Shown here: positions 17,814-20,676 of the stretch, in pieces
Numbering within the stretch: position 1 is the first letter of the stretch
Layout of the letters: every line of letters starts with the position of its first letter
Source: Alphaproteobacteria bacterium
Lineage (GTDB): Bacteria; Pseudomonadota; Alphaproteobacteria; SP197
Direction of reading: 5' to 3'
DNA: 32,831 bases
NCBI GenBank assembly: GCA_028277285.1
Contig: JANQGO010000108.1
Location: 1 to 32,831 of the forward strand
Made by a program: the position numbers and the translations under genes
The notes under the pieces: model-generated
Databases searched by the model: none
What the model saw: only the letters and a program-made list of their open reading frames with translations
What the model was told of the DNA's origin: nothing

Positions 17814-19157
17814 ATGAACCAGGAACGTATTGCCGACATTGCGGCGCGCGAGCTCGAGCGGTTCGAGAAGGCGCGGCCGCGCTCGGCGACGTTGCGCGAA
17901 CGTGCCGCCGCGTCGATGCCATCGGGCGTGCCGATGGCGTGGATGAGCGGCCTTTACCACCACCCGCCAATGTTCGTGGAGTCCGGCGGCGGTGCCCATT
18001 TTCGCGACGTCGACGGCCACGACTACATCGACTTCAACCAAGCGGACATGAGCAGCAATACCGGTTACGCCGATCCGGCCGTCACGCGCGCCATCAACGA
18101 GCGCGCGGCAGCGGGTATCCAGTTTCTGCTGCCGGTCGAGGACGCCATCGCCGTTTCCGAAGACTTGGCGCGGCGCTTCGGCCTGAGCCATTGGCAATAC
18201 ACGCTGTCGGCCTCGTTGGCGAACAGCGAGGCGATCCGCTTGGCCCGCCTGGCGACCGGGCGCGACGGCGTCTTGATGTTCGACGGCAGCTATCACGGCC
18301 ATATCGGCGAAACCATGGTCGGCCACGACGGCGAGCAGGCCAAGTCCTACGCCCTGGGTCTGCCGGACGATCACGGCCGCGACACGGCCGTGGTGCCGTT
18401 CAACGATCTGGATGAGGTCGAGCGGGAACTGGCCAAGCGGACGACCGCCTGCGTGCTGGTCGAGCCGGCGCTGACCAATGTCGGCCTGGTCCTGCCCCAG
18501 GACGGCTTCCTGGCCGGTCTGCGCGAGGCCTGCGAGCGGCACGGCGCGCTGCTGATCGCCGACGAGACCCATACCCATATGCTGGCCTATGGCGGCCTGG
18601 TGAACCTATGGGACCTGAAACCGCACATCGTCGTGCTGGGCAAGAACCTGTCAGGCGGCATTCCGATCGGCGCCTATGGCTTCGGTCGGGATCTCGCCGA
18701 CCTGATGGACCGCCACCTGTTCGATCACGCCGGCGACGAGGCGGGCTTGGCGACCGGGGGCACGCTCTACGCCAACGCGCTTTCCCTGGCCGTGGCCCAG
18801 GCGACCTTGAGCCACGTGCTGACCAAGGATGGCTATGCCAGGAACGCGCGGCTGGGAGATAAACTGGCGGACGGCATACAAACGATTATCGACGAGGCCG
18901 GCCTGCCCTGGCGTGCCCAGCACCTGACCAGCCGAGCGGGCTGGCTGATCGGGACGCGCGAGCCGGTCAACGGCGGCGAGGCGGTCGCCATGATGGATAT
19001 CGATTTGGCGGATTGCCGCCGTCTGTTCATGGCCAATCGCGGCGTTTGGGAGGCCATCGTCACGGCGGGCCCGGCGGTCTCGTTCGCCATGACCGAGGAC
19101 GATATCGACCGTTACCTGGAAGTCGCGCGCGATTGGGTCAGGGTGCTGGCGGCCTGA
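17814..19157 (+). CDS. Class III PLP-dependent aminotransferase (glutamate-1-semialdehyde aminomutase-like)
   Basis: 447 aa; GSYHGHIGETMVGHDG, LLIADETHTHML and the PLP-lysine region IVVLGKNLSGGIPIGAYGF. SD GAGGAG. Confidence 0.88.
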   Translation: MNQERIADIAARELERFEKARPRSATLRERAAASMPSGVPMAWMSGLYHHPPMFVESGGGAHFRDVDGHDYIDFNQADMSSNTGYADPAVTRAINERAAAGIQFLLPVEDAIAVSEDLARRFGLSHWQYTLSASLANSEAIRLARLATGRDGVLMFDGSYHGHIGETMVGHDGEQAKSYALGLPDDHGRDTAVVPFNDLDEVERELAKRTTACVLVEPALTNVGLVLPQDGFLAGLREACERHGALLIADETHTHMLAYGGLVNLWDLKPHIVVLGKNLSGGIPIGAYGFGRDLADLMDRHLFDHAGDEAGLATGGTLYANALSLAVAQATLSHVLTKDGYARNARLGDKLADGIQTIIDEAGLPWRAQHLTSRAGWLIGTREPVNGGEAVAMMDIDLADCRRLFMANRGVWEAIVTAGPAVSFAMTEDDIDRYLEVARDWVRVLAA

Positions 19158-19162
19158 CGAAA

Positions 19163-19302
19163 CTAGAGCAGATCCTGTTTTGATGTCATCGCGAAGCGAT
19201 TCCATCAAAACAGGTGAATCCGCTCGATTCATAGATAGAGAGCGGATTCACGTGGTTGGATGGAACCGTCAAGCGGCTCCATCCAACCGTGATCCGCTCT
19301 AG
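19163..19302. repeat. TIR-bounded multi-hairpin intergenic element (MITE/RIME-like)
   Basis: Termini CTAGAGCAGATC (19163-19174) and GATCCGCTCTAG (19291-19302) are inverted repeats with one mismatch. Three internal hairpins have stems of 11-12 bp. Confidence 0.8.
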
Positions 19303-20147
19303 GCCGTAAACACCAGAGCGACGCCGCAAGCGTCTTCCGCCGCGACCATCACCGAACGCTGCTCGCGCAGCAGCGGGATGCTGGCCGACGCCATGACCCG
19401 TGTCGTTGCCTCGAGATCGGCGACCTCCAGGGTGATCACGGCGGGACACGGTACGGCGCCGGATTCAGGCAACAGGTCAGGATAGAGCTCGTCCAGGTCG
19501 TCGTGGGAAGCGAACAGGATGCTCTCATCGCCCAGCCACAGCGTCACGATGGCATCGGTCGCCGTGACGGCGTTTTCGCCCAACAGTCTCGAATAGGCCG
19601 CGATCAGCGGTTCCGTATCGTCGCACGGCACCGCCACGCTCTTGATGCGCCGCGCGCTGTTCGGGTGATGGGTCCAGCCTTCCCGCCGCACCAGTGCCGG
19701 TGTCTGATGGTGACACAGGAACATGGGCAGGCCCGGCGTTGCCGCGTCCGGCAGATGCACGATCTGAAAACGCGGTTCGCTCGTCTCGCCCGCCTCTTCG
19801 ATCAGACGCGAGAGATCTTTCGGTCCATCGGCGGCAATGCCGGCCTCTTTCAGGTTCGCGGCCGCCGCCGCACCGTCGTCGGTTGCCAGCGCAATCGCCG
19901 ATAACCCGCTGCCCCGGTCACGGTTGCCGCGGTGCGACGCGTTGGCAGCGAACTCGTCGGGATCGACGACGCCGATCAGTTCCAGGTAGCCGCGCTCCAG
20001 CATGAAACAGTAATTGCCGGTGCCCCATTGGGGATGGCGGCCGCGCGGCGTCGGGTTGAAACCCAGACGGATATAGGTTTCCCGGTCGGCTTCCAGATCG
20101 TCGGCATTGATGAGGGTGTGGTCGATACCCGTGATGTCGCCGGCCAC
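19299..20147 (-). CDS. VOC family (glyoxalase-like) protein
   Basis: About 282 aa from GTG 20147: GDITGIDHTLINADDLEADRETYIRLGFNPTPRGRHPQWGTGNYCFMLERGYLELIGV. The ORF-track start at 20324 overlaps apt. Confidence 0.85.
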   Translation of the reverse strand: MAGDITGIDHTLINADDLEADRETYIRLGFNPTPRGRHPQWGTGNYCFMLERGYLELIGVVDPDEFAANASHRGNRDRGSGLSAIALATDDGAAAAANLKEAGIAADGPKDLSRLIEEAGETSEPRFQIVHLPDAATPGLPMFLCHHQTPALVRREGWTHHPNSARRIKSVAVPCDDTEPLIAAYSRLLGENAVTATDAIVTLWLGDESILFASHDDLDELYPDLLPESGAVPCPAVITLEVADLEATTRVMASASIPLLREQRSVMVAAEDACGVALVFTA

Positions 20148-20157
20148 GGCGCCCGCC

Positions 20158-20676
20158 CTAGTACTCGACCAGGGCGTGGAACGGCACGCCCAAGGACTCA
20201 AGCTGCTTGGCGCCGCCCAACTCCGACAGCTCGATGACGAAGGCGCAGCCGACGATCTCGGCACTGGCTTGCCGGAACAGCTGGATACCGGCCGACATGG
20301 TGCCGCCGGTCGCCAGCAGGTCATCGACCATCAGGATACGCTGGCCGGCGGTCACGGCATCCTCGTGGATCTCGACCCGGTCGGAGCCATACTCCAGGTC
20401 ATAGTCCATGCCGATGGTCGCCCACGGCAACTTGCCTTTCTTGCGCACCGGGATGAAACCGACCGAAAGCTGATGCGCGACGGCGCCGCCCAGGATGAAG
20501 CCGCGCGCTTCGATGCCGGCGACGGCGTCGATCTTGTGGCCGGCATAGGGCTGCACCAGTTCGTCGACGGTCCGGCGGAAACCGCCGGCATCACCGAACA
20601 ACGTGGTGATGTCGCGAAACATGATGCCCTTGTGGGGATAGTCCGGAATGTTCCGGACCAACGACTTGATATCCAT
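20158..20676 (-). CDS. apt: Adenine phosphoribosyltransferase
   Basis: [29 protein letters not shown] and PRPP motif [20 protein letters not shown] 20676 preferred. Confidence 0.96.

Follow-up and report, generated by a model that had tools for sequence, protein, structure and literature searches.

The RIME repeats of rhizobia consist of two large palindromes lodged in intergenic DNA, and the element that we consider here resembles them, in so far as such a general description goes, in both respects. A second two-armed repeat, the CIR of Caulobacter and Brucella, is described as two independent arms and a linker, about 110 bp in all, with TA termini, GANTC sites and a strictly intergenic location; in that account it has no terminal inverted repeat, its target duplication is unknown and the mechanism of its mobility is left open (PMC2229807). 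RUP of Streptococcus pneumoniae, which goes with IS630-Spn1, is a 107-bp sequence with a simple fold and ends paired with one another (PMC2229807, PMC3049150); it is enriched between convergent genes, for which its authors invoke weaker selection downstream of genes (PMC3049150). Finally, the Correia/NEMIS sequences of Neisseria are TA-flanked MITEs with a target duplication, 107-155 bp long, that form strong stem-loops (PMC2229807).

The element under study lies in a window of 32,831 nucleotides, positions 1 to 32,831 of contig JANQGO010000108.1 of an Alphaproteobacteria bacterium, and is closest to CIR in its architecture and to RUP in its mechanism. By the published description of CIR, the two share an alphaproteobacterial host, two arms with a linker, TA termini, GANTC and an intergenic place, whereas the element is longer by that description (134 bp against about 110 bp), has IS630-like ends and a TA duplication where CIR is without terminal inverted repeat, and carries GANTC in its inner ends rather than at a terminal loop. 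Like RUP, it is a MITE with a TA target duplication, IS630-like ends, about 100 copies and a preference for convergent gaps; yet the IS of RUP resides in the same genome, whereas no IS630 was found in the element's own, and two bulged hairpins with unit-specific ends replace the ends paired together of RUP. With Correia/NEMIS it has in common the TA flanks, the target duplication and the strong stem-loops, but the latter possess 24-bp end repeats and are described with no inverted pair of hairpin units (PMC2229807).

A first-pass annotation had proposed a 140-bp element at 19163-19302. Its bounding repeats, CTAGAGCAGATC and GATCCGCTCTAG, and its hairpins A, B and C are indeed all present in the sequence at these places. 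The repeats are real, but the extent had to be trimmed, as comparison with empty sites assigns the outermost C and G to the target, leaving an element proper of 134 bp; a covariance model matches the window copy at 19164-19301, with 128 bits. The parts of this copy and its two flanking genes are as follows.

17814-19157, plus strand: class-III aminotransferase (Aminotran_3) gene, stop TGA at 19155-19157
19164-19165, no strand: left TA of the target duplication (single TA at the empty sites of other copies)
19166-19299, no strand: element proper, GAGC...GCTC, 134 bp (empty sites of other copies; covariance-model match)
19166-19225, plus strand: unit 1, bulged hairpin GAGCAGATC-armA-GTGAATCCGCTC (sequence; unit pairing and covariation)
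19174-19214, plus strand: arm A of unit 1, that is, hairpin A (fold, covariation)
19214-19251, plus strand: hairpin B, the two mutually complementary inner ends around the spacer (fold)
19226-19239, plus strand: 14-nt spacer separating the units (14 or 15 nt in 128 of 138 copies)
19240-19299, plus strand: unit 2, bulged hairpin GAGCGGATTCAC-armC-GATCCGCTC (sequence; unit pairing and covariation)
19251-19291, plus strand: arm C of unit 2, that is, hairpin C (fold, covariation)
19300-19301, no strand: right copy of the TA duplication, the TA of the VOC stop codon (sequence; empty sites; gene calls)
19299-20324, minus strand: VOC / Glyoxalase_3 gene, open reading frame as listed; the true start may be further in

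The aminotransferase stop codon does end 5 nt before 19163, and the right-hand CTAG does contain the stop of the VOC gene (TAG at 19301-19299, minus strand), as the annotation had it. Open reading frames crossing the element are chance overlaps, and its 134 bp hold no transposase gene. In the sister species (G001 in our numbering, where G stands for genomes and L for loci), the VOC stop codon is followed only by joined end stubs, GGAGCAGATCGCGATCCGCTCTAG (L182, about 1470-1500), a visible sign of decay of the element; the VOC gene there has a YchF-like gene as its upstream neighbour, in place of the aminotransferase of the window, and the locus seems to have been rearranged at the element itself or close to it.

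The element is far from alone. Its own genome (G000, a draft of 5.26 Mb in 497 contigs, 96% complete) has at least 40 full-length places at 78-100% identity, counting the best 40 of 122 candidates, together with 105 exact hairpin units (none in the reversed control) and 52 exact central junctions (none in the control), so that a single copy without relatives elsewhere is not what is found: there are at least 52 copies, and relatives besides. For 22 copies the two flanks were joined and looked for in the genome of the sister species; 12 sites aligned across the join with a single TA kept, some of the alignments being gappy (L002, L004, L005, L012, L019, L024, L027, L029, L042, L047, L052 and L064). 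At L008 the alignment runs through the join, the TA being lost; four orthologous sites are occupied (L003, L006, L014 and L020), and at the counterpart of L009 little of unit 2 is left. Orthologous loci do not, then, all carry the sequence as ordinary alignable DNA, and the 12 empty sites with one TA establish that the element is mobile, extends from GAGC to GCTC and duplicates the 2 bp TA. Its status as a MITE that duplicates TA may be taken as secure.

The TA is present on both sides of 89 of the 122 copies. As C precedes it in 74 of 106 cases and G follows it in 72 of 100, the preferred target is CTAG. It had been suggested that CTAG was either part of the terminal repeat or a 4-bp target duplication; it is neither, the duplication being TA and CTAG the favoured landing site, since the outer base on one side varies without regard to that on the other, and the empty sites retain one TA. 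Identical copies break the assembly at L045, L046, L059 and L060 (contigs C47, C61, C205 and C206 of the own genome), where contigs start within the element, identical and then divergent, which points to recent copies of a CCCACTTGG / GCGTCCATATGG subfamily. On contig C390, L018 (11941) and L021 (12484) are identical copies with identical flanks, 543 bp apart, the outcome of either a tandem duplication of the region including the element or an assembly artefact. In another family, the complete genome G043 harbours 11 copies that are 95.7-99.3% identical, a recent burst; the copies concerned (L246-L268) belong to a sister subfamily, whose ends read GAGCAGGAT and GAGCGCGAT.

What could have moved these sequences? 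The ends of the element read GAGC[A/G][A/G]ATTCAC on the inner side and GAGC[A/G][A/G]ATC on the outer side, and ends of the form TA|GAGC[A/G][A/G]AT match those of one subgroup of IS630, found in G004 and on plasmids, the identity being short, some 8-12 bp. G004, which has the best DDE_3 match of the family, contains an IS630-type element of 1.05 kb, bounded by TA|GAGCGGTTTCAC and GAATCGGCTC|TA, relatives of which, annotated as IS630, are present on many plasmids. Its transposase (L194, 3-1055) is in two frames around an A run, TACAAAAAAAGT, an arrangement consistent with programmed frameshifting. A search of the plasmid copies for TA-flanked inverted ends, in which GAGC was not presupposed, retrieved GAGC-type ends in seven of eight, 1047-1085 bp apart (for example GAGCAGATTCGACTT, GAGCGGATTCGACTT, GAGCAAATTTGACG and GAGCATTTTCCG), with GCGC at one of these 14 ends; the eighth copy, L245, has GAGC at its right end only. 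Subgroup copies in G003, G005 and G009 likewise have right ends that begin with GAGC, while other IS630s of these genomes end differently, as in GTGTCATG and CCAAAACC. A mobiliser of this subgroup thus appears likely, judging from the ends. Since no DDE_3 transposase was found in the element's own genome, a draft, or in that of the sister species, it is from these ends that we infer the mobiliser and take the label IS630-type; an IS630-subgroup transposase would have been supplied in trans, or would since have been lost. The 26% of the complete genome G043 that we examined has no IS630 of the subgroup. The DDE_Tnp_1 loci of G000, G001, G002 and G016 were considered as partners and rejected, as their ends do not match. 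A look for long end pairs around copies, over 727 kb, yielded no more than some dozen unassigned ends, and an inverted end pair of 1.4 kb in G043 (L270) was dropped, having no recognisable transposase.

An inverted pair of palindromic units separated by a spacer, the bulges of the hairpins and the intergenic place would also suit a REP/BIME type of repeat, in which a RAYT (Y1 HuH) transposase moves paired palindromes in the form of single-stranded hairpins. Yet the own genome has no RAYT gene (Y1_Tnp, PF01797), the control genomes being positive, and TA duplication and IS630-like ends are absent from RAYT/REP units, which makes this origin extremely improbable. The earlier view, in which the element is a mobile palindromic unit, non-autonomous and MITE-like, is, on the other hand, borne out by the many copies, by the empty sites and by ends that resemble those of the IS630 subgroup.

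The body of the element is an inverted pair of bulged hairpin units of some 60 bp, in each of which 3 nt (TGA/TCA) bulge out on the inner side. Between the units, the spacer begins with TA in 95 of 122 copies and ends with it in 63 of 122, as if the units had formerly had TA flanks each of their own. The arms diverge strongly from copy to copy while retaining their complementarity: own arms are 88% and 92% paired, falling to 65% and 69% when swapped between copies, and among 36 diverse copies two-sided changes occupy 318 cells, against 94 (sd 10) after shuffling and 46-73 in slid controls. This could be kept either by selection on the fold or by template-switch correction of palindromes.

The 140 nt of the window copy nevertheless fold best, as a whole, into a complete four-way cloverleaf of -81.8 kcal/mol, where shuffled sequences average -36.2 (z = -12.8, none of 200 shuffles being as stable; z = -12.4 with DNA parameters), for which no Rfam family scores above its gathering threshold (best match 21.9 bits, cut-off 66). 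We might therefore be tempted to see in the cloverleaf, where outer ends pair with outer and inner with inner, the functional form, a junction extruded for excision or replication, all the more as the orthologous site of the sister species has kept joined outer-end stubs only, much as excision of the arms would leave them. The ends, at their fifth base, tell otherwise. This base agrees between ends of the same unit in 113 and 122 of the 122 copies, whereas outer agrees with outer in 8 of 122 and inner with inner in 10 of 122, and the pair that it should form in the cloverleaf is broken in 28 of 29 copies; hence it is the units that are conserved rather than the cloverleaf, and a functional cloverleaf is unlikely. 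The window copy is exceptional in having an A opposite a C in its unit 1, which accounts for the cloverleaf being its best fold. In G043, too, ends agree within units, with different letters.

The copies are rich in GANTC: the motif occupies the inner-right end in 120 of 122 copies and, with 2-5 sites in 118 of 122 as compared with 0.48 per element expected from shuffling, is additionally found in the apex of arm A in many copies. Three loci (L087, L120 and L121) share a common insertion, about CCCATCGTCATTTAGGGGGG, in that apex. There are a few candidates for solo units inserted independently (L041, L100); L040 and L109 are elements that have been truncated or that run off their sequence.

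The place of the element relative to genes was established on a sample of loci, with genes called by a codon model of our own, seeded with the four genes of the window. None of 100 elements lies inside a gene; convergent gaps, 7.8% of intergenic bases, receive 31 of the 100, and divergent gaps, with 34% of these bases, only 15. In 48 of the 100 a stop codon begins with this very TA, a count that the calls could inflate, as an open frame entering the element meets TAG in one of three frames; among background TAs, stop codons make up 9.9% of those in intergenic DNA, 21% of those in YTAR and 32% of those in CTAG. The enrichment over CTAG alone being modest (p = 0.001), target choice plus selection may suffice. 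That a stop codon hit at its TA is rebuilt, together with the removal by selection of copies that strike genes or promoters, would account for the presence of about half of the copies in stop codons and for the enrichment in convergent gaps.

Either end of the element contributes a G, so that a TAA or TAG stop codon hit at its TA always comes out as TAG; the window copy restores the stop of the VOC gene in this way. Inflation by the gene calls is countered at six such loci (L005, L007, L012, L024, L027 and L047), where the sister species has TAA or TAG in the corresponding position and lacks the element. The annotation had the element supply a stop codon; the TAG is there, but insertion into an existing stop, subsequently restored, is the better reading, since at other loci the sister species has the stop without the element.

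The annotation had further proposed domestication as a bidirectional terminator. The very strong compensatory change in both arms and the enrichment in convergent gaps would fit a structured regulatory RNA or such a terminator, with a fold selected at gene ends. The window locus, however, shows no terminator-like or promoter-like site, and not one intrinsic terminator (a GC-rich hairpin followed by a T run, hence the U-tract of a transcript) in 18900-19560; insertions are at stop-codon or CTAG TAs and not at promoters; a like enrichment is reported for the IS630-linked RUP, and is just as well expected from target choice and selection; template-switch correction of quasi-palindromes could likewise maintain complementary arms; and presence varies site by site between sister species, a turnover that disfavours a conserved role at each site. 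The proposal of domestication thus finds no support here, a terminator role is unproven, and we regard a fold selected as RNA or terminator as very unlikely.

We can understand the element, with good confidence, as a new family of composite MITE of the IS630 type. Its fixed inverted pair of hairpins would be best accounted for by two small units with IS630 ends having come to move as one. This accounts only in part for the fixed two-hairpin body and its unit-specific ends, which go beyond what simple MITE transposition needs. A broader view, which we hold as tentative and rather doubtful, is that two-hairpin repeats of the Alphaproteobacteria (this family, perhaps CIR and RIME) form one old superfamily of IS630-ended composite MITEs, each hairpin requiring matched, unit-specific ends of its own for transposition, and the whole specialised in the TA of stop codons, where insertion is nearly harmless; matched ends might then serve, for instance, synapsis of paired hairpins, or control of the inner ends by GANTC methylation. 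For the two-armed repeats of this class, a testable mechanism of mobility, IS630-subgroup ends and TA duplication, which is open for CIR, is now at hand. A nearly harmless mode of insertion is also documented, the TA target and the leading G rebuilding the stop codon; and more than 120 copies, near-fixed in architecture while their arms turn over with full compensation, offer material to weigh selection against templated correction of palindromes.

As for the range of the family, a covariance model derived from 36 diverse copies recovered every one of the 53 candidates scored in G000, G001 and G013, and places in 13 of the 16 genomes of the GTDB family; it found 50 places in G043 (both strands counted) and a weak one in G049. 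The exact central motif is in only 4 of 385 sampled genomes of the class, and the viral contigs, phages and plasmids searched contain no copy. Among the named carriers are MAGs of Pelagibius and Kiloniellaceae as well as an isolate, Aquibaculum arenosum CAU 1616. The central motif also turns up under the labels of other phyla: in a contig labelled Microbacteriaceae (L159) it was set aside as an unrelated palindrome; that in a contig labelled Anaerolineae (L098), from a sample that also contains Pelagibius, is probably a binning error.
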